A stretch of 64,000 nucleotides of DNA from Stenotrophomonas indicatrix (GTDB lineage: Bacteria; Pseudomonadota; Gammaproteobacteria; Xanthomonadales; Xanthomonadaceae), in contig CP168152.1 in NCBI GenBank assembly GCA_041545745.1, positions 1 to 64,000 of the forward strand, written 5' to 3'. Both the position numbers and the translations under genes were made by a program. Under the pieces are notes generated by a model, which did no database searches, was not told the DNA's origin, and worked only from the letters and a program-made list of their open reading frames with translations. Shown here one piece after another: positions 28,950 to 53,090 of the stretch (its first letter is position 1; each line of letters begins with the position of its first letter).

Positions 28950-30479
<1,530 letters not shown>

Positions 30480-32603: not shown

Positions 32604-33242
32604 TCAGCCCGCCAGCACCGCAGCCTCGCGCGCCAGGCGCTCGACGCTGTCCCAGTCTCGGGTCTGCATCAGTGCGGCGGTGGTCAGCCAAGAGCCGCCC
32701 ACGCACAGCACGTTGGGCAGATGCAGGAACTGGCTGGCGGTCTGCGCACTGATGCCACCGGTCGGGCAGAAGCGCACATCGCCGAACGGACCGTGCCACG
32801 CCGACAGCATCGCGGCACCACCGGCCTGCACCGCGGGGAAGAACTTGAAGGTATCCAGGCCATGTTCCAGGCCGACGATCAGCTCCGAACCGGTGGCCAC
32901 ACCCGGCAGGTAGGGCAGATCGGCATCGCGTGCGGCGGCATACAGCCGTGGGGTCGCCCCGGGCGACACCGCGAAGCGGCCGCCGGCCTGTTTCACCGCC
33001 TGCATCTGCGCGGCATCGAGCACGGTGCCGGCACCAATCACCGCATCCGGCACGGCGTCGACCATCGCCTTGATGGCTTCCAGCGCACGCGGCGTGCGCA
33101 GGGTCACCTCGATCACCGGCAGGCCACCACGGAACAGCGCCTGCGCGACCTGCACCGCATCGTCGATGTCATCGGGGGTGAACACCGGAATCACCGGTGC
33201 CAGTTTCAGTACCGCACGAACGCGTGGATCAGCGCCGGACAT
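32604..33242 (-). CDS. eda: KHG/KDPG aldolase
   Basis: Splits 2-keto-3-deoxy-6-phosphogluconate into pyruvate and glyceraldehyde 3-phosphate; last step of the uronate and Entner-Doudoroff routes. The 212-residue TIM-barrel protein shows PVIEVTLRTPRALEAI, AGTVLDAAQ and FFPAVQAGG (Schiff-base Lys before this, in LDTFKFFPA). Its ATG lies inside the 3' end of kdgK (14-bp overlap), so the two are translationally coupled. A second, edd-linked copy elsewhere in the genome is possible. Confidence 0.95.
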   Translation of the reverse strand: MSGADPRVRAVLKLAPVIPVFTPDDIDDAVQVAQALFRGGLPVIEVTLRTPRALEAIKAMVDAVPDAVIGAGTVLDAAQMQAVKQAGGRFAVSPGATPRLYAAARDADLPYLPGVATGSELIVGLEHGLDTFKFFPAVQAGGAAMLSAWHGPFGDVRFCPTGGISAQTASQFLHLPNVLCVGGSWLTTAALMQTRDWDSVERLAREAAVLAG

Positions 33243-34248
33243 CGAATCGCTCCTCGCCCATCAGGGCCAACACATCAGCTTCGCTGACGGGATTGAAATC
33301 GCCGGGAATGGAGTGCTTCAGGCCCCCGGCGGCCAGGCCGAAGCGCACGGTGGCGTCGGCATCGAAGGCGGACAGGATGCCATGCAGGATGCCTGCCGCG
33401 AAGGCATCACCACCGCCGATGCGGTCGACGATGCCCTGCAGCTGGCGTACCGGGGCCTGTGCGCGGGTGCCATCGCGGCCAAGCAGCAGCGCGCCCAGCG
33501 CATGGTGGTCCACGCTCAGCGTTTGCCGCTGGGTGCAGGCCAGCCATTGCAGCTGCGGGAACGCTTCGAACGCCGCCGCCGCCGCCGCTTCCACGCGCGC
33601 GACTAAGTCGGCTTGTTCGAAGCGCTGGCCGAGGATGACTTCGATATCGCGGTAATCGGCAAAGACGATGTCGGCCTGCGCGAACAGTTCGTGCAGGATC
33701 GCCTGCGCATCGCCGCCCCAGCGCTGCCACAGCTTCGGCCGGAAGTTGCCGTCGAAGGACACACGCACGCCCAGCGCACGCGCGGCGCGCGCTGCGGCCA
33801 GCGTGGCCTGCGCCACGTCCGGGCCCAGCGCCGGGCTGACCCCGGACAGGTGCAGCCACTGCGCGCCCTGCAGCAGTGCCGGCCAGTCGTAGTCGGTGGC
33901 GGTGCTGTTGGCGAATGCCGAATCGGCACGGTCGTAGACCACTTCACTGGCCCGTTGCACCGCGCCGGTGGTCAGGAAATACAGGCCCATGCGGCCGTCG
34001 GCATCTTCGCGCACGCTGCGCGTATCGACCCCATGCCGGCGCAGTTCGGCCAGCGCATGCGCGCCAAGCGCGTTGCCGGCGACGGTACTGACCATGGCCA
34101 CGTCATGTCCAAAACGGGACAGCGAGACAGCCACGTTCGCCTCGGCGCCACCGACGTGCACCTGCAGCTGCGGCGACTGCAGCAGCAGTTCGCGACCGGG
34201 TGCACCCAGGCGCAGCAGCAATTCCCCGAAACACACGATACGACCCAT
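33229..34248 (-). CDS. kdgK: 2-keto-3-deoxygluconate kinase
   Basis: Phosphorylates KDG to KDPG for Eda. The 339-residue PfkB-family sugar kinase has GGAEANVAVSLSRFG (about 33) and the catalytic DRIGGGDAFAAGI (about 287-299). ATG 34248 is preceded by AGGAG with 6-7 bp spacing; the longer frame upstream is rejected. It overlaps eda by 14 bp and is divergent from the receptor gene, sharing a 286-bp promoter region with two ATGACACCG sites. Confidence 0.95.
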   Translation of the reverse strand: MGRIVCFGELLLRLGAPGRELLLQSPQLQVHVGGAEANVAVSLSRFGHDVAMVSTVAGNALGAHALAELRRHGVDTRSVREDADGRMGLYFLTTGAVQRASEVVYDRADSAFANSTATDYDWPALLQGAQWLHLSGVSPALGPDVAQATLAAARAARALGVRVSFDGNFRPKLWQRWGGDAQAILHELFAQADIVFADYRDIEVILGQRFEQADLVARVEAAAAAAFEAFPQLQWLACTQRQTLSVDHHALGALLLGRDGTRAQAPVRQLQGIVDRIGGGDAFAAGILHGILSAFDADATVRFGLAAGGLKHSIPGDFNPVSEADVLALMGEERFDVRR

Positions 34249-34331
34249 TTTCTGCTCCTTCACGCGTGCCGCCCGCATGTGACACTGGGCGGCGTGGTAG
34301 TGGACCACGCGTGGGGCGTGGAATTGGCTAG

Positions 34332-34534: not shown

Positions 34535-37297
34535 ATGCATTCTCGGAACCATGAAAAAAAGACACCGGTTACCTTGCTCGCGTTGGCCGTCGCACTGGCC
34601 CTGGCAGGCAACGCCGGCGCGCAGCAGCAGAGCGCCAACCCGAACGCCACCGACCTGGATACGGTCACCGTCACCGGCTACCGCGCCAGCGTGGAGAAGG
34701 CGCTGGACATCAAGCGCGGCGAAGCCGGCGTGGTCGATGCCATCGTTGCCGAGGACATCGGCAAGTTCCCGGACCTGAACCTGGCTGAGTCGCTGCAGCG
34801 CATCCCGGGCGTGGTCATCACCCGCGAGGCCGGCGAAGGCCGCAACATCTCGGTGCGTGGCCTCGGCCCGGAATTCACCCGCGTGCGCATCAATGGCATG
34901 GAAGCGCTGACCACGGTCGGCGCCGGTGACCAGAGCGGCGGCACCAACCGCGGCCGTGGCTTCGACTTCAACGTGTTCGCCTCGGACCTGTTCTCGCAGC
35001 TGCTGGTGCGCAAGACTGCTTCGGCCGACGTCGAGGAAGGCTCGCTGGGCGCCACCGTCGATCTGCGCACCGCGCGTCCGTTCGACTACGACGGCTTCAC
35101 CTTCGCCGCCAGTGGCCAGGCCAGCTACAACGCGATGGCCGAGAAGGCCGACCCGCGCATTGCCGCACTGGTCTCCAACACCTTCGCCGATGGCACCTTC
35201 GGCGCATTGCTGTCGGTGGCCTATTCCGAGCGCCAGGCGCTGGAGGAAGGTTCCAACACCGGGCGCTGGGCCAACGGCCCGAGCAACGGCAACTTCGCCG
35301 CGTCCTCGCCGTTCGCCGCCGCGCGTGGCGCCAACGTGTTCCATCCGCGCTTCCCGCGCTACGTGCAGATGGAACACGAACAGAAGCGGCTGGGCGTAAC
35401 CGGTTCGCTGCAGTGGAAGCCGAACGACGCCACCGAGATCTCGCTGGATGCGCTGTACTCGAAGATCGATGCGACGCGCGACGAGCACTACATCGAAGCG
35501 ATCTCCTTCAGTCGCGGCGCCAATGCCAATGCGCGCCTGTCAGGCAAGCCGGCCACCATCGTCAGGAACGGAGAGATCCGCGACAACGCGCTGCTCTATG
35601 GCGAGTTCGACAATGTCGACATCCGCACCGAGAACCGCCACGACGAGTGGAGCACCGAGTTCAAGCAGATCGCGCTGAACGGCCAGCACCGCTTCGGCGA
35701 TGACTTCACCCTGTCCGGCAAGATCGGCATCTCGCGCTCCAAGCACGAGAACCCGGTGCAGACCACCGTCATCATGGACAAGTACGATGTCGACGGTTAC
35801 AGCTACGACTACCGTGGCAACAGCCGTGCGCCGATCCTCAACTACGGCATCGACCCGACCAATCCCAACGGCTGGGAACTGGCCGAGATCCGCCTGCGTC
35901 CGCAGTACGTGGACAACGACTTCGACACCGGCCAGATCGACTTCAACTGGAACATCAGCCCGGGCTTCCGCCTGAAGGGCGGCGTGCTGGCCAAGGACTA
36001 CACGTTCAAGACCGTCGAACTGCGCCGCGCCAGCGAACTGGCCGTGCCCAACTTCGCCGGCGGCAACAGGATCGTGCCGGCGGACCTGACCGAGCAGGCC
36101 GGACTGAAGGGCATCAACGGCAGTCCGTCCAACTGGGTCGTGCCGGACTTGGATGCGATCGCCGAACAGCTGGACATCTACAGCAACAGCGGCACCTTCG
36201 CCGTCGCCCCGCGTGCCAACAACGTGCGCAGCGTCGAAGAGAAGGACCGTGGCGCCTACCTGATGGGCGAGTTCTCCACTGAACTGGGCTCGCTGCCGCT
36301 GTCGGGCAACTTCGGCGTGCGCTACGTGCGCACCAAGCAGTCGTCCACCGGTCAGTCGACGTTGGCCAACGGCACCGTCGAAACGACGGTCAGCCGCACT
36401 TACGACGATACCCTGCCCTCGTTCAACCTGGTGGCCGAAGTCACCCCGGACTTCCTGATCCGGTTGGGTGCGGCAAAGGTGATGAGCCGCCCGGGGCTGG
36501 GCAGCCTGACGCCGGGCGCAACGGTGGCCGTGGCCGGTGGTGCGCGCACCATCTCCAGCGGCAACCCGGTGCTGGATCCGATCCGCGCAACCAATGTCGA
36601 CCTCGGCTTCGAGTGGTACTTCTCCGAAGGCGCGATGGCCGGCATCGGCCTGTTCTACAAGGACATCGAGAGCTTCGTGCAGACCACCCGCGAAGTGCGC
36701 CCGTTCAGCGACAGTGGCCTGCCCGCCTCGCTGCTGACTGGCACCGGTGCCTCACCCACCGATGACTTCACCTATACCAAGCCGGTCAACACCCCGGGCG
36801 GTGAACTGCACGGCGTGGAAGCCAACTACACCCAGCCCTTCACCTTCCTGCCGGGCAAGTGGGCCAACCTGGGCGTGCAGTTGAACTACACCTGGGTGGA
36901 ATCGAAGATCCAGTACATCAACGCGGCCGGGCAGCCGGTGATGAAGACCGACCTGACCGGCCTGTCGAAGTCGTCGTGGAACGCCACGCTGTTCTATGAA
37001 GGCGAGACGTTCGCCGGGCGCATCTCGGCCACCAACCGCGATGATTACCTGACCCAGGCACCGGGCCAGGAAACCGGCTTCAACCTCGATGGCTACCACG
37101 GCATGACCGGTACCACGGTGTTCGATGCGTCCATCCGCTACAAGATCAGCGACCAGCTGGAACTGAGCCTGGAAGGCATCAACCTGACCAACGAAGCCTC
37201 CGACGAGTGGGTGTACTCGCCGCTGACCGGTCGCCTGCCGCTGCAGTACACCGAGACCGGCCGCCAGTACCTGCTGGGGCTGCGCTACAAGTTCTGA
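34535..37297 (+). CDS. TonB-dependent receptor, carbohydrate type
   Basis: A 920-residue outer-membrane receptor with signal peptide (cut near AGAQQQ, about 30), plug domain (DIGKFPDLNLAESLQRIPGV, RNISVRGLGPEFTRVRINGM) and a 22-strand-type barrel ending YLLGLRYKF. The long plug with this 'NLAESLQRIPGV' motif is typical of the sugar-polymer receptors of Xanthomonads and Caulobacter. By context it should import pectic oligosaccharides. ATG at 34535 was preferred over an in-frame TTG 18 bp upstream. It is followed by the LamG protein gene, separated by a GC hairpin (37305-37332). Confidence 0.92.
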   Translation: MHSRNHEKKTPVTLLALAVALALAGNAGAQQQSANPNATDLDTVTVTGYRASVEKALDIKRGEAGVVDAIVAEDIGKFPDLNLAESLQRIPGVVITREAGEGRNISVRGLGPEFTRVRINGMEALTTVGAGDQSGGTNRGRGFDFNVFASDLFSQLLVRKTASADVEEGSLGATVDLRTARPFDYDGFTFAASGQASYNAMAEKADPRIAALVSNTFADGTFGALLSVAYSERQALEEGSNTGRWANGPSNGNFAASSPFAAARGANVFHPRFPRYVQMEHEQKRLGVTGSLQWKPNDATEISLDALYSKIDATRDEHYIEAISFSRGANANARLSGKPATIVRNGEIRDNALLYGEFDNVDIRTENRHDEWSTEFKQIALNGQHRFGDDFTLSGKIGISRSKHENPVQTTVIMDKYDVDGYSYDYRGNSRAPILNYGIDPTNPNGWELAEIRLRPQYVDNDFDTGQIDFNWNISPGFRLKGGVLAKDYTFKTVELRRASELAVPNFAGGNRIVPADLTEQAGLKGINGSPSNWVVPDLDAIAEQLDIYSNSGTFAVAPRANNVRSVEEKDRGAYLMGEFSTELGSLPLSGNFGVRYVRTKQSSTGQSTLANGTVETTVSRTYDDTLPSFNLVAEVTPDFLIRLGAAKVMSRPGLGSLTPGATVAVAGGARTISSGNPVLDPIRATNVDLGFEWYFSEGAMAGIGLFYKDIESFVQTTREVRPFSDSGLPASLLTGTGASPTDDFTYTKPVNTPGGELHGVEANYTQPFTFLPGKWANLGVQLNYTWVESKIQYINAAGQPVMKTDLTGLSKSSWNATLFYEGETFAGRISATNRDDYLTQAPGQETGFNLDGYHGMTGTTVFDASIRYKISDQLELSLEGINLTNEASDEWVYSPLTGRLPLQYTETGRQYLLGLRYKF

Positions 37298-37433: not shown

Positions 37434-40400
37434 ATGCCGCACCGCTCGACCCTGTCCCGCTGCCTGCTGCTCGCAGCGGCCCTGGCTGCCGGCCCCGCGA
37501 TGGCCGCTACCGATGCGCCCACGCTGCTGTTCCACGTCGATGCCGGCAAGGGGCTGGAGGCCGTGGTGGCGCACGGGGAAGCGGTGCCGAACTTCCGCGA
37601 CAAGGTCGACATCGTCGACGACGGAGCGCGCGGCAAGGCGATCCAGTGGCAGGACGACGGTGTGCTGGCCTGGGATGCGCCCGGCAACATCCTCGCCCAG
37701 CGCGGCACCCTCGCCTTCGACTGGCGCGCGCGCTATGCGGTGGGCGAAGCACCGTTCGTGATCTTCCGCGTCGGCTATGCCGACCACAGCAGCTGGGACA
37801 TGGCCTGGCTGCGCATCGACTGGAACGGGCACGGCTTCGATGCGTTCGTCACCGATGCGAACCTGGCACGCACGCGTGTGTCGTTCCGCATGGACACGCC
37901 GCCACGCGCGGACCAGTGGCTGCACCTGGCCTTCGCCTGGGATGAAGACCAGGGCGTGCGCCTGTTCGTCGATGGTCGCGAGGTGGCGCGTGTGCAGGCC
38001 AGCGGTGACTACGATGCAGCGCTGGACCAGCTCGGCCTGGCCGGACGGGTAATGGCGCCCTATCAGGTGCAGAGTCGCTACAACTTCCTGCGCGGCAGCG
38101 ATTTCCAGCACATCCGCGTGTACGACCGCATGCTTGACGCTGCGGCCGTCAGTGCGCTCGCGCGTGGCAAGGTCGTCACCAGCGCCGTTGCCAACGCTGC
38201 GGATGACCGTGCCTGGCTGCATCGCTTCGGCTGGGACGGAGTACCGCCACCGGCATTGACCGCCGCCAGCACGCGCATCCGCAAGATCGAATTCGCCGAT
38301 ACCCGCGACCTCAAGGCGTGGATGTGGAAGGCCACCGATGGCATCGCCGAGACCACCTGGCCGGGTGTCTACAACCGCTCGCGCCTGCCCGGCCGCAACG
38401 ACTACTTCCAGTTGCCGGACTGGAACACCTACGTGGAAGGTGGCCAGCATCTGGACCTGACCGTGCCCGCCGGCGAGACCGTCAACCGGGTGGAGATCCG
38501 CGGCGCGGCGTTCGGCACGCTGGCCCATGGCCGCGATGCGGCGCACGCCACGCAGGTGCTGGCGACGCGGCCCAAAGGTGTGGTGCGCAGCGTCGACGAT
38601 ATTCCGGCGCAGACCGGTGGCGTGCTGCGCTTCAGCAACGTTGAACAGGAAACGCCGATCCAGGAGATCTGGGCATATGACGTGAGCCAAGGCGCCGAGC
38701 CCGATGGCACGGTCAAACAGGCCTATGTCATCGACAGCCAGGCGTTGCCCGATTACACCAACCTGGACACGCTGCGCCGCTACATCGAGGGCCGCTACCC
38801 GGCGGCCGAACGCAGCACGGTGATGGCGCTGCCGAAGGGCGCAGGCTCGCGACGGCGCAGCGCCGACACGCTGCCGGCCCAGCCGAAGCCGATCGTGCAC
38901 GTGTTGATTCCCTCCGGCGTGGGTGATGCGCCGGCCAACCAGCCGTTGATCCGCAGCTGGGCCTACAGCTGGGAAAACATGCATGACGGGCTGGACGGCG
39001 TGGCCATCGACATCCCCACGCTGGACCTGCCGGCAACGCACGACGGCCTGATCCCGCTGAACATCCGCATCAAGGATCCGATCTGGCCGGCGCGCGACAT
39101 GATCGATGTTTCGGTCTCGGTGCAGCCCGGGCAGAAGCGCACGCTGTGGCTGGACCTGCGCGACCGCATCCTTACGCCCGACAGCCTGTGGCTGAGCATC
39201 GCCTCGGCTGCTCCCGGCTTCGATGCGGCGTCGCTGGATGGTGCACAGGTGCGGCTGGTGTTCAAGCCACGCGCCGATGCGATCAAGGAGCACGTGGCCG
39301 ACCGCTTCAACCAGGTGCGCGACAACTGGGGCTTCCTGGTGGAGGAACACACCACCTCCAAGCGCCAGCGCCTGTATGCGCGCGTCTACGCGGACCTGAG
39401 CGATCTGCTGCGGGTCGACCCGGATCACGAGCTGGGCCGGTTGTACTGGAACTACATCAGCTACAACAGCCAGGGCCGCCCGCCGTACACCGCGCCGGAG
39501 GTGCCCAAGGGGGTACCTGCATGGGCCTTCCACCAGGTGCAGGACCTGGCCCAGGTGCGGCAGTTCGTCGACTGGTGGATCGATCAGCGCCAGGTGGCCT
39601 ACGGCGATTTCGGTGGCGGCATCTCCGATGATTCCGACCTGACCCAGCAATGGCCGGGGCTGGCCCTGATGGGCGTGCAGCCGGACCGACTGAATGCCTC
39701 ACTGACTGCCTTGTCCGACGCGGTGTACCGCAATGGCATGTTCAGCAATGGCCTCAGCACCATCGAGACCGATGAGCTGCATTCCTACGAGGAAGGCATC
39801 AACACCAACAGCGCGATGCTCTACCTCAACTGGGGCGATCCACTGACCCTGGAACGATTGATGGAAACGGTGAAGGCGTTCGACGAGCGCATCATCCTGC
39901 GCAACCCGCAGGGTCATCTGCTGTTCTCCAGCAACTGGTTCGGTGGCAACAAGATTTACCGCGAACCGAACTGGCAGTGGCAGAAGCCGTATTCGTTCCC
40001 GGTGCTGCATCCGGCGTTCCTGCTGGGCCAGTACAACGCCGACCCGACCGGGCGCCGGCTGGTGATCGGCTTGGCCGATGGCTATCTGGCCCATGCCGGC
40101 AGCGACGACAAGGGCCGCTTCACCCTGCCCAACGAGATCAACTGGGCGACGGGTGAGACCCGTGGCGGCGAACTCAACAACGGCTCCGGCAGCGGCGACA
40201 CGATGCACACCTTCTGGGCGGCATGGCGCTGGACCGGTGATGCGAAGTACCTGCAGGCACTGGACTATCGCGTGCAGCGCGGCGGCCCCGGCGCGCTGGC
40301 CAACCTCGGCGAGAACTACGTGGAGGCGCTCGGCCGGCAGCAGGACTGGTACCCGCTGCTGACCGCCGATGCCGATGCCGGGAAGACCGGCTTCGCCAGC

Positions 40401-41237
40401 CTGATGGCCTGGCAGGCCAGCGGGGAACGCAAGTACATCGACGCACTGCATGCCGATGGCCTGCAGGCCAAGGTGCAACGTGCGTACATGAACACCGAGG
40501 GCCACTGGTGGTCCGACCGGGTGGAAGCGCCGAGCGAGTTCCTGCAGCGTGCACGGCTGGGTGGCATCGCCCTGAAGCGCAACCAGAGCTGGCCCGGGCA
40601 CACCGTCAGCTGGCGCTTCGATCGTGAAGGCGCGGCGGAACAGGTCGCACTGCTGGTGCATGCGCCCTCGCGCGAGCGCTTCACGGTCACCAGCCACAAC
40701 CTCGGCGCGCGCGTGATTGCCGCCGACATGACGGGTTGGAACGTGGCCAGCGGAACCTGGCGGGTGCGCAGTGGCGCGGATGGCGATGACGATGGCCGCA
40801 TCGACGGTACGCCGCGCGAGCGAACGGTGCAGCTGGAGACGAGTGCGTCGATACCGATGCAGTTCCAGCCAGGCCGCACCGAGGTATTCGAATTCGAGCG
40901 TGTGTCTGCGGGGACGCCGGTGGAAACACGCCCGGATCTGGGCGTGGGCCGTGGTGATGTACGTGTGGACGGGCGCCAGGTGCACGTGACCGTGCACGGC
41001 CTTGGGCATGTGGCCAGCGGCGTGGGCGTGGCGGTGCTGGAAGATGCGCGGGGCCGCGAGATCGTACGCACCGACGTGCCGGCGATGGCTGCACCGACTG
41101 ACCTGTTGCCGAAGACCGCAGTGGTGTCGTTGCCGTTGCCGGCCGGTGATCGCAGTGGCCTGCGCGTGCGTGTTGCACTGGCCGATGGCGGTGAGGAAGT
41201 GACGCGGCTCAACAATGTGGCGGACGTGCCGCGGTGA
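37434..41237 (+). CDS. Giant secreted LamG-domain protein, likely carbohydrate-active
   Basis: A 1267-residue protein with a clear signal peptide (cut near AMAATD, residue about 24). Residues about 25-245 look like a concanavalin/LamG fold (WRARYAVGEAPFVIFRVGY, WLHLAFAWDEDQGVRLFVDG). A beta-rich middle part follows, then about 620-1060 is tryptophan-rich and helical, suggestive of an (alpha/alpha) toroid as in many glycan lyases and hydrolases (TDELHSYEEGINTNSAMLYLN-like region, GSGSGDTMHTFWAAWRWTG). The C-terminus is again beta-rich. I do not recognise the family; a PL26-like exo-rhamnogalacturonan lyase is one untested possibility. It lies just after the carbohydrate receptor. Confidence 0.8.
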   Translation: MPHRSTLSRCLLLAAALAAGPAMAATDAPTLLFHVDAGKGLEAVVAHGEAVPNFRDKVDIVDDGARGKAIQWQDDGVLAWDAPGNILAQRGTLAFDWRARYAVGEAPFVIFRVGYADHSSWDMAWLRIDWNGHGFDAFVTDANLARTRVSFRMDTPPRADQWLHLAFAWDEDQGVRLFVDGREVARVQASGDYDAALDQLGLAGRVMAPYQVQSRYNFLRGSDFQHIRVYDRMLDAAAVSALARGKVVTSAVANAADDRAWLHRFGWDGVPPPALTAASTRIRKIEFADTRDLKAWMWKATDGIAETTWPGVYNRSRLPGRNDYFQLPDWNTYVEGGQHLDLTVPAGETVNRVEIRGAAFGTLAHGRDAAHATQVLATRPKGVVRSVDDIPAQTGGVLRFSNVEQETPIQEIWAYDVSQGAEPDGTVKQAYVIDSQALPDYTNLDTLRRYIEGRYPAAERSTVMALPKGAGSRRRSADTLPAQPKPIVHVLIPSGVGDAPANQPLIRSWAYSWENMHDGLDGVAIDIPTLDLPATHDGLIPLNIRIKDPIWPARDMIDVSVSVQPGQKRTLWLDLRDRILTPDSLWLSIASAAPGFDAASLDGAQVRLVFKPRADAIKEHVADRFNQVRDNWGFLVEEHTTSKRQRLYARVYADLSDLLRVDPDHELGRLYWNYISYNSQGRPPYTAPEVPKGVPAWAFHQVQDLAQVRQFVDWWIDQRQVAYGDFGGGISDDSDLTQQWPGLALMGVQPDRLNASLTALSDAVYRNGMFSNGLSTIETDELHSYEEGINTNSAMLYLNWGDPLTLERLMETVKAFDERIILRNPQGHLLFSSNWFGGNKIYREPNWQWQKPYSFPVLHPAFLLGQYNADPTGRRLVIGLADGYLAHAGSDDKGRFTLPNEINWATGETRGGELNNGSGSGDTMHTFWAAWRWTGDAKYLQALDYRVQRGGPGALANLGENYVEALGRQQDWYPLLTADADAGKTGFASLMAWQASGERKYIDALHADGLQAKVQRAYMNTEGHWWSDRVEAPSEFLQRARLGGIALKRNQSWPGHTVSWRFDREGAAEQVALLVHAPSRERFTVTSHNLGARVIAADMTGWNVASGTWRVRSGADGDDDGRIDGTPRERTVQLETSASIPMQFQPGRTEVFEFERVSAGTPVETRPDLGVGRGDVRVDGRQVHVTVHGLGHVASGVGVAVLEDARGREIVRTDVPAMAAPTDLLPKTAVVSLPLPAGDRSGLRVRVALADGGEEVTRLNNVADVPR

Positions 41238-41881: not shown

Positions 41882-41890
41882 CGGTGTCAT
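41882..41890 (-). promoter_or_regulatory. Candidate uronate operator, CDO-like cupin gene
   Basis: ATGACACCG on the minus strand, ending on the last base of the upstream esterase stop codon and 44 bp before the cupin start. Confidence 0.5.
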
Positions 41891-43512
41891 CACTGCGTGC
41901 CACGTTGCACGAACGGCACTTTTGCATAGAGCGCACGCTCTCCCGCGCGTGGATCGTCAACCATGCGGCTGTGCCGATCGAACAGCATCGTCTGCCGGTG
42001 CGGCAATGAATACGGGGCCCATTGCGGCATTCCTGCGTGATTCGGATCGCCGTTGCGCGCAAACGCAATCAGGGCATCGCTCATCGTCACCGCCAGTGCA
42101 ATGGCATCTTCACCACCGCCGGTGCGGGCACCGGGCAGGCCGGCGTTGTCGAACACCAGCGGAATATCCAGCGTGTGGAACGCGCGCAGACGTCCCTCTT
42201 CCACCGGTGACGGCCAATCGAGCTGGTAGGCCCAGGTCCGTGCGGCACCGGTTGTCTGCCGGGCGCGTGCTTCCAGCTCTTCCACCGCGCCGCGCCAGGA
42301 ACGGCCGGCCGTGGTGGCGGCAAAGAACACTTCCGACGGCGTGTAGTGCGGGTACAGGCGTCGATACTCTGCGATCACCACCGAGGGCAGAAGATCGACG
42401 AACTGCTGCTTCTGCAGCTGCGCCGGCAGACTCTCCCAGGTCAGCGTGAAGTTGGCGGGATCGTTGCCAAGGAAGGCGCGCGTCTCATCGCGGGTGTTGC
42501 CGATCACCATCGGAATCGACGCGGACTGCGCCGGTGCCTGTGGCCAGAACGGATGCACCGGCAGCACCACGTCATCCAGCACCGGGCCGAAGTACAGCGC
42601 GCTGCTTTCCACCCGCGAAGGATCGCGTGCGCGGGTGGCGGCCAGCAGGTCGGCCGCGGGCAAGCGCAGCAGCGCCCGCAGGTCGGGCGCGCCCACCGCA
42701 TCCATCGCAATCGAAGCCCGTTGCGCCGCCGCACGCGGACCGGCCGCGGTGACCTGCTGCCCGCTCATCGTCCACGCGCGCTGGAACAGGCCCTCCGCTG
42801 CGGGCATCGCCATCAGCGTGGCGATCTTGGCACCGCCACCGGATTGCCCGAACACGGTGATGTTGCCGGCATCGCCACCGAACACTGCGGCGTGCTCGTG
42901 CACCCACTGCAGCGCCTGCACCAGGTCGAGCTGGCCGACGTTGCCGGAGGCCGCATAACGCGGATCGCCCAGCGCACCCAGGTACAGGTAGCCGAAGGTG
43001 TTCAGACGATGATTGACGGTGACCACCACCACGTCGCCGCGTCGGCACAGCGCGCTGCCGTCGTACAGCGGGTCGCTGCCAGAACCGTTGTTGAAGCCGC
43101 CGCCATGCAGGTACACCAGGATCGGTCGCTTGCCGTTGTCGCCCAGTGCCGGCGTCCATACGTTGAGGAACAGGCAATCTTCGCTGCCCGGACCATCCGC
43201 CCCGGTCTGGGGCGCAGAGGCGGCGTATTCCAGGGCGTCGGCGATACCACGCCAGCCTGTCTCGCGGCGCGGCGGCTGGAATCGGTAGACCGCAGTGTCG
43301 GCGCCATATCGCAGGCCGCGGAACACGTGAACCCCCTGCTCGCGCTGGCCGCGCACGCGGCCGCCACGGACGCGCGCCACGATCTGCGTGTCATCGCGTG
43401 GTCCAGGCATCGCGGAAGCAGGAAGCGCTGCGAGGGTACCGGTGGCCAGCGCCCAGCGTGTACTGTCGAGCAGGAAACGGCGGCGCTGCAGGTCGGTCGT
43501 CCCTGCGTTCAA
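41890..43512 (-). CDS. Type B carboxylesterase, Tat-like export signal
   Basis: A 540-residue carboxylesterase/lipase (PnbA-like) with oxyanion motif HGGGF (about 136-140) and the nucleophile Ser224 in FGQSGGGAK, where most relatives have GESAG. The N-terminus (LQRRRFLLDSTRW) resembles a twin-arginine signal. The start is a TTG at 43512 overlapping the TGA of the upstream hydrolase (TTGA), with GGAGG 7 bp before it, so the two are translationally coupled. A longer ATG frame to 44136 is rejected. Likely deacetylates or de-esterifies pectic substrates. Confidence 0.85.
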   Translation of the reverse strand: MNAGTTDLQRRRFLLDSTRWALATGTLAALPASAMPGPRDDTQIVARVRGGRVRGQREQGVHVFRGLRYGADTAVYRFQPPRRETGWRGIADALEYAASAPQTGADGPGSEDCLFLNVWTPALGDNGKRPILVYLHGGGFNNGSGSDPLYDGSALCRRGDVVVVTVNHRLNTFGYLYLGALGDPRYAASGNVGQLDLVQALQWVHEHAAVFGGDAGNITVFGQSGGGAKIATLMAMPAAEGLFQRAWTMSGQQVTAAGPRAAAQRASIAMDAVGAPDLRALLRLPAADLLAATRARDPSRVESSALYFGPVLDDVVLPVHPFWPQAPAQSASIPMVIGNTRDETRAFLGNDPANFTLTWESLPAQLQKQQFVDLLPSVVIAEYRRLYPHYTPSEVFFAATTAGRSWRGAVEELEARARQTTGAARTWAYQLDWPSPVEEGRLRAFHTLDIPLVFDNAGLPGARTGGGEDAIALAVTMSDALIAFARNGDPNHAGMPQWAPYSLPHRQTMLFDRHSRMVDDPRAGERALYAKVPFVQRGTQ

Positions 43513-44492
43513 GGCGCGGCCTCCGTCGCCTGCAGCCAGCGTTGTGCCAGCAGCGGCCATACGGCCAGTGTCGAATCGGGCGGTATGCGCATGCCGAAGC
43601 CATGGCCACCATGGGCGAACAGATGCAGCTCGTGTTCGACACCCGCCTTGGCCAGCGCGTGCGCCATCACCTCGCTGTTGCGCACGCTGACCACGCGGTC
43701 GTCGTTGGCGTGGATCAGCAGTGTCGGCGGCATGTCCGCGCGTACGTGCTGCTGCATCGAATACTGCGCAGCCAGCGCCGCATCGGCCTGCTCGCCCAGC
43801 AGACGCCTGCGTGAGCCGCTGTGAGCATGCGGACCCATATCGATCACCGGATACACCAGCACCGCGCGTGCCGGACGCGCGCTGAGGCGGTCGATGGCAT
43901 CGCGCGGCGGGTAGATCGGCGCATCGAAGCTGATGGCCAGCCGTGCGGCCAGGTGGCCACCGGCGGAGAAACCCATCACCGACACGCTGTCGGCATCCAG
44001 CCTGCGCCGTGCGGCCTGGTCGCGCACCACGCGCAGTGCGCGCTGCGCGTCGGCCAGCGCCGCCTGGCGGTCGCGACCGGCCTGCGGCAGGCGGTAGCGC
44101 AGCACGAACAGGGTGTAGCCGGCACGGTCCACCCACTCCGGCACCAGCGCGCTGTCCTCCTTGTCGATCACCACGCGCTGGTAGCCGCCACCGGGAATCA
44201 CCAGCAGCGCGCGGCCGTTGGCACGGGCCGGCGTGTGTACCAGCAGATAGGGCGCATCGACCTGGTCGATGAAGCGATCGGGGTGGGCCGGATCATCGCT
44301 GCGCTCGACCACGCGGACCGGCCGCGCAGTGCCCGTTTCACCGGGGACCTGCCCGGCCGGCCACAGTGCCAGCTGCTCGCCAGCAAGTTCCTGGCCCAGG
44401 CGTTCGTCTGCGCGCAACGGCACATCGGCCGCAGATGCGGGGACGGTCAGCAGCAGACCTGACAGCAACAACAGCACACGGGGAAAACGCAT
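43509..44492 (-). CDS. Alpha/beta hydrolase, acetyl esterase-like
   Basis: A 327-residue exported hydrolase with signal peptide (cut near ASAAD, residue about 22), oxyanion loop IPGGGY (about 99-104), Ser176 in GFSAGGH, and the Asp-His region HANDDRVVS...HGGHGFG. The pattern resembles the acetylxylan and pectin acetyl esterases of the BD-FAE/Aes group. It is the first gene of a minus-strand pair with the carboxylesterase and is divergent from the hydratase-TRAP genes across a region with one ATGACACCG motif. Confidence 0.85.
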   Translation of the reverse strand: MRFPRVLLLLSGLLLTVPASAADVPLRADERLGQELAGEQLALWPAGQVPGETGTARPVRVVERSDDPAHPDRFIDQVDAPYLLVHTPARANGRALLVIPGGGYQRVVIDKEDSALVPEWVDRAGYTLFVLRYRLPQAGRDRQAALADAQRALRVVRDQAARRRLDADSVSVMGFSAGGHLAARLAISFDAPIYPPRDAIDRLSARPARAVLVYPVIDMGPHAHSGSRRRLLGEQADAALAAQYSMQQHVRADMPPTLLIHANDDRVVSVRNSEVMAHALAKAGVEHELHLFAHGGHGFGMRIPPDSTLAVWPLLAQRWLQATEAAP

Positions 44493-45477: not shown

Positions 45478-45516
45478 CCGCCGCACGACCCGGTGAACAC
45501 GCGCGGGAGGGCGCAG

Positions 45517-46521
45517 ATGATCACACGACGACATTTCCTGGCCGGCGGCGCTGCTGCGCTGGCCACCCCGATGCTCGCGGCCTGTGGCCGCGGGCCCGCC
45601 AATGCCATCGATGGTGGCCAGCTGCTGACGGCTACCGACGTGCACGTGGCCGACTACCCCACCGTGACCGCGGTGAAGTGGATCGGCGAAACCCTGCAGC
45701 GCGAAAGCAACGGTCGCCTGCGCCTGCGGCAATACCATTCCGGCCAGCTCGGTCGCGAATCGGAAGCGATCGACATGGCCCGTTTCGGTGCCATCGACAT
45801 CACCCGCGTGTATGCCGGTGCATTGAACAACGCCTTCCCGCTGACCCAGGCACTGTGCCTGCCGTATGTGTTCGAGTCGGTCGCGCACCAGCGCGCCGCA
45901 CTGGATGGCGGCATCGCCGATGCGGTGCTGCGTGGTTTCGAGAGCCGCGACCTGGTCGGCCTGGCCATCTATGATTCCGGCGCGCGCTGCTTCTACAACA
46001 CCAAGCATCCGATCGTGCAGCCCGGTGATCTGCACGGGCTGAAACTGCGTGTGGCGTCCTCGGACATCTTCATCCAGCTGATGCGCCTGCTCGGCGCCAA
46101 CCCCACGCCGATGTCGTTGGGCGATACGTTCTCCGGCATGGAAACGCACATGATCGATGGCGCCGAGAACAACATGCGCAGCTTCCATTCCAGCCGGCAC
46201 TTCGAGGCCGCGCAGTACTGGTCGCAGAGCGATCACTCGTATGCGCCGGACGTGCTGCTGATGTCGCGCGCCAGCTTCGAGCGCCTGCAGCCGGCTGATC
46301 GCCAGCTGTTGCTGGAGACCGCGCGCGCCTCGGTGAAGGTGATGCGCGCGCAATGGGATGCGTCCGAAGATGCTGCGCGTCGCGCGGTGCTGGCCTCTGG
46401 CGTGAAAGCCAACGAGGTGGACCTGCCCGCATTCCACGCCGCCGCCCAGCCGCTGCTGCAGCAGTACCTGCAGCAATCCGAGCTGGCCGCACTGGTCGCA
46501 CGCATCCGCGCCGCTGCCTGA
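45517..46521 (+). CDS. dctP: TRAP transporter substrate-binding protein
   Basis: A 334-residue periplasmic DctP-family binding protein with a TRRHFLAGG twin-arginine-like signal and lipobox LAAC (Cys 23), then the family features RESNGRLRLRQYHSGQLG and the substrate-Arg region YNTKHPIVQPGDLHGLKLRV. Proposed ligand: uronate or unsaturated di-galacturonate, like the TRAP systems seen next to kdu genes. ATG 45517 follows GGGAGG. First gene of dctPQM. Confidence 0.9.
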   Translation: MITRRHFLAGGAAALATPMLAACGRGPANAIDGGQLLTATDVHVADYPTVTAVKWIGETLQRESNGRLRLRQYHSGQLGRESEAIDMARFGAIDITRVYAGALNNAFPLTQALCLPYVFESVAHQRAALDGGIADAVLRGFESRDLVGLAIYDSGARCFYNTKHPIVQPGDLHGLKLRVASSDIFIQLMRLLGANPTPMSLGDTFSGMETHMIDGAENNMRSFHSSRHFEAAQYWSQSDHSYAPDVLLMSRASFERLQPADRQLLLETARASVKVMRAQWDASEDAARRAVLASGVKANEVDLPAFHAAAQPLLQQYLQQSELAALVARIRAAA

Positions 46522-46531
46522 GGACACTGCC

Positions 46532-47068
46532 ATGACCGAGACGACGATTCCCGCCACCGGCCCCGGCCAGCGCCTGCTGGACCGCATCGCCGACTTCGCC
46601 ATCTACTTCGCCGTGGCTGCGCTGCTGGGGCTGGTGGTGGTGCAGGGCTGGCAGGTCTTCGCCCGCTATGTGATCAACGATTCACCCAGCTGGACCGAGC
46701 CGGTGACCCTGCTGCTGCTGGCCACGGCGATGAGCCTGGGCGCGGCCTGCGGCGTGCACACCAACCGCCACTTCGGCTTCTTCCTGCTGCACGCCTACAT
46801 GGGTGTCGGCCTGCGCCGGGCGGTGGATGTATTCACCCAGCTGGTGGTGGCGCTGTTGGGCGGCTTCATCGCGTTCTGGTCGGCCGACCTGCTGCTCGAT
46901 GGCATGGACATCAAGACCGCTGGCGCCAACCTGCCGCAGAGCATCAACTACCTGCCTCTGGCCGTGGGCGGCGCGCTGATGCTGCTGTTCGCGCTGAACC
47001 GTGCATGGAAAGCGCTGCAGGCCACGGCATCCGATGCCGACGCCGCCGACGCTGAAGGAGATCGTTGA
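46532..47068 (+). CDS. dctQ: TRAP transporter small permease
   Basis: A 178-residue four-helix DctQ protein with segments near 21-42, 55-74, 98-118 and 141-165 and the typical QVFARYVINDSPSWTEP region. It bridges the binding protein and large permease in the inner membrane. It starts 10 bp after dctP; dctM follows after 3 bp. Confidence 0.92.
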   Translation: MTETTIPATGPGQRLLDRIADFAIYFAVAALLGLVVVQGWQVFARYVINDSPSWTEPVTLLLLATAMSLGAACGVHTNRHFGFFLLHAYMGVGLRRAVDVFTQLVVALLGGFIAFWSADLLLDGMDIKTAGANLPQSINYLPLAVGGALMLLFALNRAWKALQATASDADAADAEGDR

Positions 47069-47071
47069 TCC

Positions 47072-48355
47072 ATGGGCATCACCATCCTGTTCTCTGTTTT
47101 CGCTGCGCTGCTGCTGCTGGGCGTGCCGGTGGCCTACGCGTTGGCCGCCGCTGCGCTGGCCACCCTGCTCTATCTGGACATCCCCAGCATCGTGCTGGTG
47201 CAGCAGATCTCCGCCGGTACTGGTTCGGCCTCGTTGATCGCCATTCCACTGTTCATCTTCGCTGGCGAGATCATGATGCGCGGCGGCATCTCCGAACGCC
47301 TGATCGCCCTGGCGTCATCGCTGGTCGGGCGCTTGCGCGGCGGCCTGGGCCAGGTATCGATCCTGTCCTCGCTGTTCTTCGGTGGTGTATCCGGCTCGGC
47401 CATCGCCGATGTGTCGGCAGTGGGCGGCACGATGATTCCGCAGATGGTCAAGCGTGGCTACGACCGCGATTTCGCGGTGAACGTCAGCATCACGGCCGCG
47501 CTGGTGGCGCTGCTGGTGCCGCCATCGCACAACCTGATCCTGTTCTCGGCCGCTGCCGGTGGTGGCCTGTCGATCGCCGACCTGTTCGCCGCAGGCATCG
47601 TGCCGGCGCTGCTGATGACGCTGGCGCTGATGATCACCGGCTATGTGGTCGCGCGTCGCCGGGGGTATGGCGTGGAAGTGTTCCCGGGCTGGCGCGCGGT
47701 ACTGCTGCGCATCGTCTCCGCCCTGCCCGGCCTCGGTCTGGTGGCGCTGATCTTTGTCGGTATCCGCGCCGGCATCTTCACTGCAGTGGAGAGCGCGGCC
47801 ATCGCCGTGGTCTACGCCCTGCTGGTCACCACCGTGCTGTACCGGCAACTGCGCTGGCGCGAGTTCTTCGACACCGTCGTCCATGCCGCACGCAGCACCG
47901 GCGTGATCCTGTTCGTGATCGCAACCGCAGCGGTGTTCGGCTGGCTGCTGGCCTACCTGCAGGTGCCTGCGGTGGCGGTGGACTTCCTGCAGTCGTTCGC
48001 GCACAGCCAGTGCATGGTGCTGCTGATGATCGTGGTGATGCTGTTGCTGCTGGGCACCTTCATGGACCTCGCACCGTTGATCCTGATCTGCACGCCGATC
48101 TTCCTGCCGGTGGCCAGGGCCTATGGCATCGACCCGATCCACTTCGGCCTGGTGCTGGTGCTGGCCGGCGGCCTCGGACTGGTCACGCCACCCGTGGGCT
48201 CGGTGCTGTTCATCGGCACTGCCATCGGCAAGATCAGCGTCGGGCAGAGCATGCGCACGATCTGGCCATTCTGGTTCGCCGCGCTGGGCGTACTGCTGAT
48301 CGTCACCTTCTTCCCAGCGCTGTCGCTGTGGCTGCCCGCCACGCTGCGCGCCTGA
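47072..48355 (+). CDS. dctM: TRAP transporter large permease
   Basis: A 427-residue polytopic DctM protein forming the cation-coupled uptake channel. It is nearly all membrane-embedded and has the conserved FFGGVSGSAIADVSAVG region (about 107-122), LVPPSHNLILFS, and GLGLVTPPVGSVLF. The length is typical of this family. It completes the DctPQM importer and is followed by the GH43 gene after 17 bp. Confidence 0.95.
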   Translation: MGITILFSVFAALLLLGVPVAYALAAAALATLLYLDIPSIVLVQQISAGTGSASLIAIPLFIFAGEIMMRGGISERLIALASSLVGRLRGGLGQVSILSSLFFGGVSGSAIADVSAVGGTMIPQMVKRGYDRDFAVNVSITAALVALLVPPSHNLILFSAAAGGGLSIADLFAAGIVPALLMTLALMITGYVVARRRGYGVEVFPGWRAVLLRIVSALPGLGLVALIFVGIRAGIFTAVESAAIAVVYALLVTTVLYRQLRWREFFDTVVHAARSTGVILFVIATAAVFGWLLAYLQVPAVAVDFLQSFAHSQCMVLLMIVVMLLLLGTFMDLAPLILICTPIFLPVARAYGIDPIHFGLVLVLAGGLGLVTPPVGSVLFIGTAIGKISVGQSMRTIWPFWFAALGVLLIVTFFPALSLWLPATLRA

Positions 48356-48372: not shown

Positions 48373-49962
48373 ATGACACCGATGCTGCGCCGCGCTGCTG
48401 CAACTGCCCTGCTTGGCCTGATGCTGGCTGCGCTGCCCGCACTGGCTGCCGATCCCGTGCCTGCGCAGTGGAAGCGCGGCATCGAGCACCAGCGCCAGGC
48501 TGACCTCGGCAATGGCACCTTCCTCAACCCGGTGCTGGCCGGTGACAGGCCCGATCCGTCGGTGCTGAAGGACGGCGACGACTACTACCTCACCCTGTCC
48601 TCGTTCGATGCCTACCCCGGCCTGCCGATCTGGCACTCGCGCGACCTGGTGAACTGGCAGCCGCTCGGCCATGCGATCACGCAGAACGTGGGCGCGATCT
48701 GGGCGCCGGACATCGTCAAGCACCAGGGCCGCTACTTCATCTACTTCCCGGCGCGCACCGGTGAGCGCCGCAGCAACTTCGTGGTCTGGGCCGATGACAT
48801 CAAGGGTCCCTGGAGCGCGCCGATCGACATCGGCCTGGGCGGCTACATCGATCCCGGCCACGCGGTGGGTGAAGACGGAAAGCGCTACCTGTTCCTCAGT
48901 GGTGGCGATTATGTGCAGCTGGCCGATGACGGCCTGAGCGTGGCGGGTACGCCGAAGCATGTGTACGACGGCTGGCGCTACCCGGAAAGCTGGGACGTAG
49001 AGGCCTACGCCCAGGAAGGGCCGAAGATCCACTTCCGCGATGGTTGGTACTACATGACCACCGCAGTGGGCGGCACCGCCGGCCCGCCGACCGGGCACAT
49101 GGTGATCACCGCACGCTCGCGCTCGATCCACGGCCCGTGGGTGAACGCGCCGAACAACCCGATCATGCGCACGCAGTCCGCCGCCGAACCGTGGTGGTCG
49201 CGCGGCCACGCCACGGTGATCGAAGGCACCGACGGCCGTTGGTGGATGATGTACCACGGCTACGAAAACGGCTTCTGGACGCTGGGCCGGCAGGCGCTGC
49301 TGGAGCCGATCGAATGGACCACCGATGGCTGGTTCGTGGCCAAGGGCGGTGATCTTGGGCAGCCGCTGCGCAAGCCATCGGGCAGCGCGCTGACGCCGCA
49401 CGGGATGGCCCTGTCCGATGATTTCAACGGCCGTACGCTGGGCCCGCAGTGGGCGTTCTTCAACCCGGCGGTGGATGAATACCGGCGCCTGCGTTTCAGC
49501 GGCGACGGGCTGGTGCTGCAGGGCAAGGGCAGCACGCCGCGCGATGCCTCGCCGCTGACCACCATCGCCGGCGACCCGGCCTACCAGTTCGAGGTGCAGA
49601 TGGAGATCGCCCCCGGCGCGGTCGGCGGTGCGCTGCTGTTCTACAGCGACCGCCTGTACGTGGGCGTGGGCAGTAACGGCGAGCAGTTCGTCATGCACCG
49701 CTACGGCGAGGAGCGCCCCACCCGGCTGGCGGCCAGTGCCAAGGGCGGCCGGCTCTGGCTGCGGGTGACCAACAACCGCCACATCGTCACCATCCATTCC
49801 AGTGCCGATGGCCAGACCTGGCAGAAGTATCCGGTTCAGATGGAAGTGTCCGGTTACCATCACAATGTGGCCGGCAAGTTCCTGGCACTGAAACCGGCGC
49901 TGTATGCGGCCGGCAACGGTGCGGTAACCTTCCGCAGCTTCCGCTATCGCGCGCTGGACTGA
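48373..49962 (+). CDS. Glycoside hydrolase family 43 enzyme
   Basis: A 529-residue exported GH43-type enzyme with signal peptide (cut near ALAADP, about 26) and a five-bladed propeller containing catalytic base Asp61 in DRPDPSV, Asp113 in WAPDI and proposed acid Glu215 in EGPKIHF. The C-terminal beta-sandwich (about 345-529) is an accessory domain. Most relatives are arabinofuranosidases, xylosidases or galactosidases; here a role on arabinan or galactan side chains of pectin fits. The start follows GGAGG. Its first nine coding bases are ATGACACCG. Confidence 0.9.
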   Translation: MTPMLRRAAATALLGLMLAALPALAADPVPAQWKRGIEHQRQADLGNGTFLNPVLAGDRPDPSVLKDGDDYYLTLSSFDAYPGLPIWHSRDLVNWQPLGHAITQNVGAIWAPDIVKHQGRYFIYFPARTGERRSNFVVWADDIKGPWSAPIDIGLGGYIDPGHAVGEDGKRYLFLSGGDYVQLADDGLSVAGTPKHVYDGWRYPESWDVEAYAQEGPKIHFRDGWYYMTTAVGGTAGPPTGHMVITARSRSIHGPWVNAPNNPIMRTQSAAEPWWSRGHATVIEGTDGRWWMMYHGYENGFWTLGRQALLEPIEWTTDGWFVAKGGDLGQPLRKPSGSALTPHGMALSDDFNGRTLGPQWAFFNPAVDEYRRLRFSGDGLVLQGKGSTPRDASPLTTIAGDPAYQFEVQMEIAPGAVGGALLFYSDRLYVGVGSNGEQFVMHRYGEERPTRLAASAKGGRLWLRVTNNRHIVTIHSSADGQTWQKYPVQMEVSGYHHNVAGKFLALKPALYAAGNGAVTFRSFRYRALD

Positions 49963-50000: not shown

Positions 50001-51059
50001 ATGTCAGTGCGCAACAAGAACGATGCCGCTACGCCGGCATTGGCAAAGGGCAAGGCAGCCACGATCAATGACATCGCGCGACTGTCGGGTGTATCCAAGA
50101 AAACGGTTTCAAGGATCATCAACAACTCGCCGCTGGTGCGCAAGGACACGCGCGACAAGGTGGAAGCGTTGATGCGCGAGGTCGGTTACAGCCCCGACCC
50201 GCTGGCCCGTGGCCTGGCCTTCCGCCGCTCGTTCCTGATCGGCATGGTCTACGACAACCCCACCGCGCAGTACATCGTGGACATGCAGTACGGCGCGCTG
50301 GATGCGCTGCGTGGCTCCAGCTTCGAACTGGTGGTGCACCCCTGCGACAGCCGCAGCCCGGGCTACATCGACGGCGTGCGCCGCTTCGCCCAGCAGCAGA
50401 AGCTGCATGGGGTGATCCTGGTGCCGCGTGCGTCCGAAGACCAGGCACTGGCGGACATGCTGGACGAGATCGGCTGCCGCTTCACCCGCGTGGCTGCGCT
50501 GCCGCTGGATGAAACCTCGCAGATGGTGGTCACCCACGACCGCGATGGTGCCGCTGAAGCCGCTGACTACCTGCTCTCGCTTGGCCACCGCGATATCGCC
50601 CTGGTGACCGGCCCGAGTGCCTACCGCTCGGCGCACGAACGCACCGCCGGCTTCATCGAGGCGCTGTCGCAGCGTGGCATCGAGCTGCCGAAGGACCGCA
50701 TCATCGAGGCCGGCTACACCTTCGAATCCGGTGTGGCCGCCGCCGAGAAACTGCTGCTGGGCAAGCGTCGGCCGACCGCGATCTTCACCGGCAACGACGA
50801 AATGGCGGCCGGTGTCTACAAGGTCGCGCTGCGTGCCGGCATCAACATACCGCGCCAGTTGTCGATCATCGGCTACGACGACAGCCCGCTGGCCTCGCGC
50901 CTGTGGCCGTCGTTGACCTCGGTGCGCCGGCATACCCGCGATACCGGCCGCACCGCTGCGGCCATGCTGATCCAGCCCGAAGGCCAGCCCGCGCTGCAGA
51001 TCGCCAGCGTGCGTCCGCACCTGATCGTGCGCGATTCCTGCCAACCGCCGGAGGACTGA
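50001..51059 (+). CDS. LacI-family transcriptional regulator
   Basis: A 352-residue LacI/GalR repressor with an N-terminal helix-turn-helix (TINDIARLSGVSKKTVSRI, about 21-39), hinge helix (SPDPLARGLAFRRS) and a sugar-binding-protein-like core ending IIGYDDSPLASRLWPSLTSV. It lies between the GH43 and kduI genes and is the only obvious regulator inside the uronate locus, so it is the best candidate to bind the ATGACACCG motifs. The ligand is probably a KDG-like intermediate or a uronate (inference). Confidence 0.93.
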   Translation: MSVRNKNDAATPALAKGKAATINDIARLSGVSKKTVSRIINNSPLVRKDTRDKVEALMREVGYSPDPLARGLAFRRSFLIGMVYDNPTAQYIVDMQYGALDALRGSSFELVVHPCDSRSPGYIDGVRRFAQQQKLHGVILVPRASEDQALADMLDEIGCRFTRVAALPLDETSQMVVTHDRDGAAEAADYLLSLGHRDIALVTGPSAYRSAHERTAGFIEALSQRGIELPKDRIIEAGYTFESGVAAAEKLLLGKRRPTAIFTGNDEMAAGVYKVALRAGINIPRQLSIIGYDDSPLASRLWPSLTSVRRHTRDTGRTAAAMLIQPEGQPALQIASVRPHLIVRDSCQPPED

Positions 51060-51256: not shown

Positions 51257-52153
<897 letters not shown>

Positions 52154-52233: not shown

Positions 52234-52989
52234 ATGACCAATCCCTTCAGCCTGGAAGGAAAAGTCGCTCTGGTAACCGGTGGCAATACCGGCCTGGGCC
52301 AGGGTATCGCGGTGGCACTGGCTGCCGCCGGCGCCGATGTCGCGGTGGCCGGCATCGCCCCGCCCACTGAAACCATCGAGAAGATCTCCGCGCTGGGCCG
52401 CCGCTGCCTGGCCATCGAAGCCAACCTGATCAGCATCGAGCCGGTCGAGCGCGTGGTGCGCGAAACCATCGAGGGCCTCGGCAGGCTGGACATCCTGGTC
52501 AACAACGCCGGCCTGATCCGTCGTGCCGATGCGGTGGACTTCAGCGAGCAGGACTGGGACGACGTGATGAACGTCAACATCAAGTCCGCCTTCTTCATCT
52601 CGCAGGCCGCCGGCCGCCACTTCATCGAACAGGGCAGCGGCAAGATCATCAACATCGCCTCGATGCTGTCGTTCCAGGGCGGCGTCCGCGTGCCGTCGTA
52701 CACCGCCAGCAAGAGCGGTATCGCCGGCATCACCCGCTTGCTGGCCAACGAATGGGCCGGCAAGGGCGTGAACATCAACGCGATCGCGCCGGGCTACATG
52801 GCCACCGACAACACCGCCGCGCTGCGCGCCGATGCAGACCGCAACAAGGCGATTCTGGAGCGCATTCCGGCCGGCCGCTGGGGCAACCCGGAAGATCTGG
52901 CGGGAGCGGCGGTGTTCCTGGCTTCGTCGGCGTCGGACTACATCAACGGCGCAGTGCTGCCGGTCGATGGCGGTTGGCTGGCGCGGTAA
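52234..52989 (+). CDS. kduD: 2-dehydro-3-deoxy-D-gluconate 5-dehydrogenase
   Basis: KduD reduces 2,5-diketo-3-deoxygluconate to KDG, the substrate of KdgK. The 251-residue short-chain dehydrogenase has the nucleotide motif GGNTGLG (about 16-22), NNAGLIRRA, and the catalytic YTASK pair; it ends INGAVLPVDGGWLAR. It forms a pair with kduI on the same strand. A REP dimer follows 14 bp after the stop. Confidence 0.95.
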   Translation: MTNPFSLEGKVALVTGGNTGLGQGIAVALAAAGADVAVAGIAPPTETIEKISALGRRCLAIEANLISIEPVERVVRETIEGLGRLDILVNNAGLIRRADAVDFSEQDWDDVMNVNIKSAFFISQAAGRHFIEQGSGKIINIASMLSFQGGVRVPSYTASKSGIAGITRLLANEWAGKGVNINAIAPGYMATDNTAALRADADRNKAILERIPAGRWGNPEDLAGAAVFLASSASDYINGAVLPVDGGWLAR

Positions 52990-53078: not shown

Positions 53079-53090
53079 CGGGGCCCGGCC

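Follow-up and report, generated by a model that had tools for sequence, protein, structure and literature searches.

A secreted LamG protein with a predicted (alpha/alpha)6-type toroid in a uronate locus of Stenotrophomonas indicatrix, a probable enzyme of pectin-type uronide use

A stretch of 64 000 nucleotides of Stenotrophomonas indicatrix (the window; start of contig C1 in a genome of 4.66 Mb) encodes a secreted, multi-modular protein of 1267 residues, here called the giant, within a locus for uronate catabolism. The giant belongs to an uncharacterised, enzyme-like and widespread family whose core lineages connect it with the use of pectin-type uronides, and it is probably an enzyme of uronide use itself. 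It most likely delivers unsaturated uronate, either by beta-elimination, which is preferred, or by Delta-uronyl hydrolysis; a lyase is our first, tentative choice for the activity of its toroid. We infer catalysis, the substrate (galacturonan, acetylated or methylated), the exo mode and the lyase chemistry. An earlier note on this DNA had proposed an undescribed polysaccharide depolymerase, possibly a PL26-like exo-rhamnogalacturonan lyase; this was upheld in part, namely for an unassigned, enzyme-like toroid protein in a uronate locus of a genome without matches to the pectin depolymerases tested, and not for the likeness to PL26.

The gene (37434–41237, forward strand) was judged to be real and its reading frame has a coding-type GC3 of 0.85. 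With the alternative in-frame start, a GTG at 37374, the protein would be 20 residues longer; the AAAGGAA upstream of the ATG and the normal-looking Sec signal (MPHRSTLSRCLLLAAALAAGPAMA) favour the ATG, which lies 136 bp past the stop codon of a TonB-dependent receptor gene. Two AlphaFold2 models (pLDDT 87–89) gave a CBM32-like sandwich, a beta domain, an (alpha/alpha)6-type toroid, a beta-sandwich and an Ig-like tail (Table 1); one relative (P0277) carries PF07705, which we take to be CARDB. The helical hairpins predicted at residues ~613–1044 were matched to toroids by VIA, with GH76, GH88/GH105 and epimerase barrels as the best structural neighbours (6–11% identity). Barrel folds of the GH88/GH105 type, (alpha/alpha)6, and of the GH76 type are present in the models, as is the discoidin-like beta-sandwich fold of CBM32. 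The top 50 VIA rows held no PL catalytic domain (alginate lyases appeared there via their CBM32), which excludes nothing. Foldseek matches were set aside, both those of the whole model (complement and other poor multi-domain matches) and the only two found at E ≤ 0.001 with the giant's module alone (both TM ≤ 0.22); the match of the module to PL15 Atu3025 (E 7.7e-3, TM 0.17, rmsd 28.8) was not meaningful.

Laminin_G_3 (PF13385) matched residues 126–239 of the giant with a score of 32.7 bits (cut-off 27.6). Nothing else in Pfam exceeded its cut-off, NCBIfam gave no match, and PDB sequence searches returned a weak match in the LamG region (4qvs, E 0.0064) and a chance match to a ribosomal protein. 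The name baseplate J protein, carried by relative P0031, was rejected, PF04865 scoring 15.9 bits at residues 412–466 against a cut-off of 21.1. No match at E ≤ 1 was found to the Pfam models for PcRGLX (PL26), Glyco_hydro_88, GH76 or PL10 Pec_lyase, the last having, in relatives, a gene of its own close to that of the giant, and none was found to Pfam models of the toroid families PL8, PL12, PL15, PL17, PL21 and PL39. Profile–profile comparison with HHalign gave a probability of 0.2% against five GH88/105 proteins and of 0.2% (E 0.3) against PL26, the latter a weak test with a profile from only three proteins.

Much of the earlier note was confirmed by these results: a secreted protein of 1267 residues directly behind a carbohydrate receptor, a LamG-like front, a Trp-rich helical centre resembling an (alpha/alpha) toroid (42 Trp residues, with the hairpins and toroid matches described above), and no family to which the protein could be assigned. 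Of the checks it had proposed, structure prediction placed the toroid between beta domains, and the profile search for PcRGLX-type domains was negative. PL26 (PcRGLX/YetA) was rejected by sequence and profile, and one giant-bearing genome (G279) encodes a true PL26 protein as a separate gene. The domain order of PL26, beta–toroid–beta, is that of the giant.

Conservation was assessed in an alignment of 298 sequences (222 database proteins, including that of the window, and 76 locus ORFs, i.e. open reading frames) and in a distant set of 51 of the 123 module-aligned relatives, with less than 47% identity to the module (40–47%; the count omits the 72 closer rows). Of the Trp residues, 27 are kept in at least 98.5% of the 298 sequences. 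Throughout the distant set D732, D733, D735, D780, H783, E786, N868, D1028 and R1029 never vary; Y671 and Y939 are likewise constant, and Y785 is Tyr in 48 of the 51. Within the toroid (613–1044), 30 polar positions are kept in at least 97% of the distant rows, comprising 13 Asp/Glu, six Arg, five Gln, two Tyr and a single His, Asn, Ser and Thr. In the first AlphaFold2 model D732–D735 are near a helix start, H783 is in a short helix turn, N868 is at a helix end and D780, E786, D1028 and R1029 are in loops. The LamG part is better conserved than the toroid; among all 50-residue blocks of the protein, LamG residues 101–150 rank first in conservation (mean 0.94, 298 sequences). Such conservation would be odd for a mere binding module and suggests that LamG would help to form the active site or some other essential contact surface.

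The genome encodes KduI, KduD, KDG kinase and KDPG aldolase, and a profile search of it gave no match to models of PL1, PL10, PL22, PL26, GH28, GH88/105 or UxaC. The Kdu branch, whose substrate is unsaturated uronate, is therefore the only one recognised among the entries tested, so that something must make unsaturated uronate; of the candidates, the giant is the one best placed to supply this monomer to KduI. The presence of KduI (PF04962, NF002091) and of a KduD-type enzyme (SDR families) in the locus, as assumed in the earlier note, was established, and so was its claim of a locus without a recognised lyase: no lyase family was found in the 29 window ORFs given to Pfam, out of 133 of at least 150 residues, and the genome lacks matches to the four PL families named above. 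Another lyase-type ORF lies at 3.49 Mb of C1; it has matches to both Alginate_lyase and Hepar_II_III_C, as PL17 enzymes do, and is read as a putative PL17. For S. maltophilia an exolytic lyase specific to alginate, Smlt2602, is reported (PMC4765187), and orthology with this ORF is not assumed.

Across 37 genomes of the genus KduI occurs in 22, namely in 22 of the 27 with the giant and in none of the ten without it. UxaC was found in two of the 37, PL10 in eight (all giant-bearing), PL1 in one, and PL22 and GH28 in none. GH88 gave weak partial matches in five, just above the cut-off once neighbouring pieces were summed. Four of these (G004, G016, G020 and G025) have the giant and no KduI, the match falling in a frame of 675–934 residues elsewhere in the genome; the fifth is in the giant-negative G028.

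In a collection of named genomes the giant was found in 397 of 461 candidate stretches, and the best 80 were kept as loci, each with up to 10 kb of flanking sequence per side; in 52 of them both flanks exceed 9.5 kb. Relatives of neighbouring genes were sought with tblastn (E ≤ 1e-15, at least half of the query covered). A TonB receptor relative was present in 77 loci (at least 38% identity) and a KDG kinase in 74 (at least 49%), followed by BD-FAE in 40, carboxylesterase in 39, DctP in 37, PL10 in 30 (at least 37%), aldolase in 27, GH43 in 25 and pectin methylesterase (PME) in 22, all 22 with PL10; KduD was found in six and KduI in three, often lying past the flank. The nearest recognised upstream gene was the TonB receptor in 49 loci, PL10 in 26, KduI in one and none in four. 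In X. hortorum (L079) KdgK, two TonB receptors, PME, PL10 and the giant stand in a row, PME and PL10 being confirmed by Pfam; this gene set is of the homogalacturonan type. A similar layout is known from the Xanthomonas pectin CUT locus XCC0120–XCC0122, where the receptor gene XCC0120 of X. campestris lies upstream of PME and pectate lyase genes and is induced by polygalacturonate (PMC1790865); the likeness is one of layout, the receptors not being established as orthologues, and the available text of that paper mentions no LamG giant. Novosphingobium (L121) keeps KduI, KduD, a sugar kinase, a carboxylesterase, a TonB receptor, GH43 and the giant together; a second, small LamG protein (L121:19738–20421) directly follows the giant there. 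In G091 a BNR_2/BT_1020-like beta-propeller gene (L022:4108–5427) follows the GH43 gene, with relatives in seven of the 80 loci.

According to the proposed scheme, the giant would be secreted to the periplasm or the cell exterior and would act as a multi-modular (alpha/alpha)6-barrel enzyme. Its LamG and CBM32-like modules would dock it onto polymer or oligomer, the esterases of the locus would remove acyl groups from the substrate, and the toroid would free 4,5-unsaturated uronate by beta-elimination, preferably exolytically. Uptake of the products would fall to the TonB receptor and the TRAP transporter, and their catabolism to KduI, KduD, KDG kinase and KDPG aldolase. The ligands of CBM32 modules vary, and a likeness to the CBM32 of the alginate lyase AlyQ names none for the giant.

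Several observations weigh against this scheme. The proteins nearest to the toroid in structure are hydrolases and epimerases, at very low identity; no invariant Tyr lies in its conserved loops, where Y785 falls short; and the kept polar residues suit a hydrolase as well as a lyase, so that the two chemistries are not told apart by the invariant set, which comprises candidate catalytic residues. In 17 of the 22 genomes a single contig carries both the giant and KduI, no more than 20 kb apart, and their co-occurrence is thus partly linkage and not independent; five of the 27 giant-bearing genomes of the genus have neither KduI nor UxaC. Where PL10 is already present, in 30 of the 80 loci, the giant is not the sole lyase candidate. 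None of the 16 neighbour queries matched within 10 kb in Nitrospirillum (L096, L099) or a Caulobacter-type locus (L019), the annotation of Asticcacaulis (L120, 45.8% identity) shows TonB receptors and a GH28-related gene and, within 18 kb, none for uronate, and the 16-kb flanks in Sphingomonas R1 (L122) hold other sugar genes and no annotated uronate gene. Members of the family may therefore differ in substrate, or their catabolic genes may sit elsewhere in the genome.

The toroid could instead be a Delta-uronyl hydrolase analogous to GH88/GH105, a lyase (the PL10 of relatives, or that of a neighbour) cutting pectin and the giant freeing Delta-galacturonate from the ends. The (alpha/alpha)6 barrel is common to both, and the toroid has invariant Asp and Glu residues, which may or may not correspond in position to the catalytic Asp pair of GH88/GH105. 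However, identity is 6–10%, profile similarity is absent, the GH88/GH105 rows are chains of 332–397 residues that contrast with a giant bearing LamG, CBM32-like and beta domains, and no PL10 feeder exists in the genome itself or in 33 of the 52 loci with long flanks; the two modules would also fit a polymer better than a dimer. This reading ranks second after the lyase and, taken alone, is rather unlikely. A hydrolase of another part of pectin or of a co-occurring glycan (a side chain, acyl-shielded galacturonan or rhamnogalacturonan I) that yields saturated sugars is distinctly unlikely: the barrel is shared with GH76 alpha-mannanases, but at 10% identity and with no Pfam match, the locus is one for uronate and not mannan, and the KDG kinase relatives in the great majority of loci indicate uronate. 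The Asp-Asp pair of the giant lies ~26 residues into the aligned stretch and that of GH76 ~85, by linear ranges, so that the pairs are probably not equivalent and that of GH76 would sit elsewhere in the barrel. Another uronide hydrolase, neither lyase nor Delta-uronyl hydrolase, is very unlikely.

The giant might instead have no enzymatic function and bind glycans, at the surface or in the periplasm, so as to pass oligomers to the TonB receptor. This would agree with two binding-type modules, the adjoining receptor and a most conserved block within LamG; it is improbable in view of the many charged toroid residues that are invariant in the 51 distant rows, as in an active site. Beta-elimination by the toroid remains the preferred chemistry. 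The more specific proposal, in which the giant founds a new PL family and, as one multi-modular exo-pectate lyase, converts galacturonan directly into unsaturated monomers, is doubtful.

When 8000 candidates were scored against the giant, 1871 proved to be homologues at E ≤ 1e-3, the closest named ones being from Stenotrophomonas (96% and 92% identity); rows bearing a name were called LamG, concanavalin-A-like, baseplate-J-like or hypothetical. In a set of relatives the giant was found in 27 of 61 genomes (27 of 37 within the genus, none of 24 outside it), and in a sample of the phylum in six of 398. The 80 loci are mainly from Stenotrophomonas, Xanthomonas, Pseudoxanthomonas and Luteimonas, and also from Rhodanobacter, Nitrospirillum and Sphingomonas, with Stenotrophomonas rhizophila among the species that carry the gene; the module search added relatives named Acidobacteriota, Edaphobacter, Pyrinomonadaceae and Opitutus (42–44% identity to the module), and others are named Sphingomonas and Caulobacter. 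Stand-alone, LamG-free toroid relatives are not claimed, because several length-filtered matches were fragments or had a called start inside LamG or a later region. No literature on the family was found among the open-access titles and abstracts matched, subscription papers and preprints being outside this search. One locus filed as Bacillus subtilis SK7B5 (L042, JAHREJ010000056.1) has a giant of 78% identity and Stenotrophomonas-like neighbours, and is probably from a contaminated assembly. In the plasmid-borne Asticcacaulis locus, which encodes a full-length relative, DUF2278, SUMF1-type and Dyp-type peroxidase genes directly follow the giant.

The features of the locus are given in Table 1. 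The fusion of an esterase and a cupin at 53034–54188, inside a uronate locus, is noteworthy. A KdgF-like identity of this cupin, which would mark an unsaturated monomer, was not used (KdgF/'pectin degradation protein', E 0.43–0.73); its best match is a different cupin (3e-8). A type I cysteine dioxygenase gene (PF05995, 41251–41838, reverse strand) converges on the giant directly after it, with no tie to uronate seen, and a regulator with GAF and sigma-54 activator domains (30015–32552, forward strand) lies upstream of the aldolase gene.

Table 1. Coordinates in the window of the giant, its domains and neighbouring genes.
Feature	Position	Strand	Basis and remarks
Giant LamG/CBM32/(alpha/alpha)6-toroid protein	37434..41237	+	1267 aa; Sec signal ~1-25; mature ~137.5 kDa
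LamG domain	37521..38168	+	residues ~30-245; PF13385 and conservation, from sequence, outside the 3D models
CBM32-like beta-sandwich	38274..38684	+	residues ~281-417
Beta domain ahead of toroid	38751..39269	+	residues ~440-612; AlphaFold2; start overlaps sub-threshold Baseplate_J match
(alpha/alpha)6-type toroid	39270..40565	+	residues ~613-1044; AlphaFold2 and VIA; invariant GGGxxDDxD (727-735), D780, H783, E786, D1028-R1029
Beta-sandwich behind toroid	40605..40910	+	residues ~1058-1159; AlphaFold2
C-terminal Ig/CARDB-like domain	40926..41234	+	residues ~1165-1267; AlphaFold2 strands; domain type putative
KDPG/KHG aldolase (Eda)	32604..33242	-	PF01081
PfkB sugar kinase, taken to be KDG kinase (KdgK)	33229..34308	-	PF00294; relative in 74/80 loci
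TonB-dependent receptor	34535..37297	+	Pfam domains; relative in 77/80 loci
Carboxylesterase type B	41890..43500	-	PF00135 and PDB relatives; start uncertain
Secreted BD-FAE/alpha-beta hydrolase esterase	43509..44492	-	PF20434
TRAP transporter DctP-DctQ-DctM	45493..48355	+	Pfam
GH43 with GH43_C2 domain	48382..49962	+	Pfam; PDB relatives GH43 arabinofuranosidase/xylosidase; start approximate
LacI regulator	50001..51059	+	Pfam
KduI, 5-dehydro-4-deoxyuronate isomerase	51305..52153	+	PF04962; NF002091, 409.9 bits
KduD-type short-chain dehydrogenase	52234..52989	+	SDR families, start context; kduD annotated in related Novosphingobium locus
SGNH acetylesterase (CE12-like) with C-terminal cupin	53034..54188	+	PDB YxiM 1.1e-22, rhamnogalacturonan acetylesterase 2.4e-12; Cupin_2

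The giant represents an enzyme-like family of more than 1000 homologues, which in the plant-associated Xanthomonadaceae goes together with pectin genes. As a lyase or a Delta-uronidase, if it is either, it would close the gap between polymer and KduI in genomes without the enzyme families tested and would add a family to CAZy. If it founds a new PL family, bacteria without the classical pectinases tested, GH88/105 or uronate isomerase would live on pectin via the Kdu branch alone.

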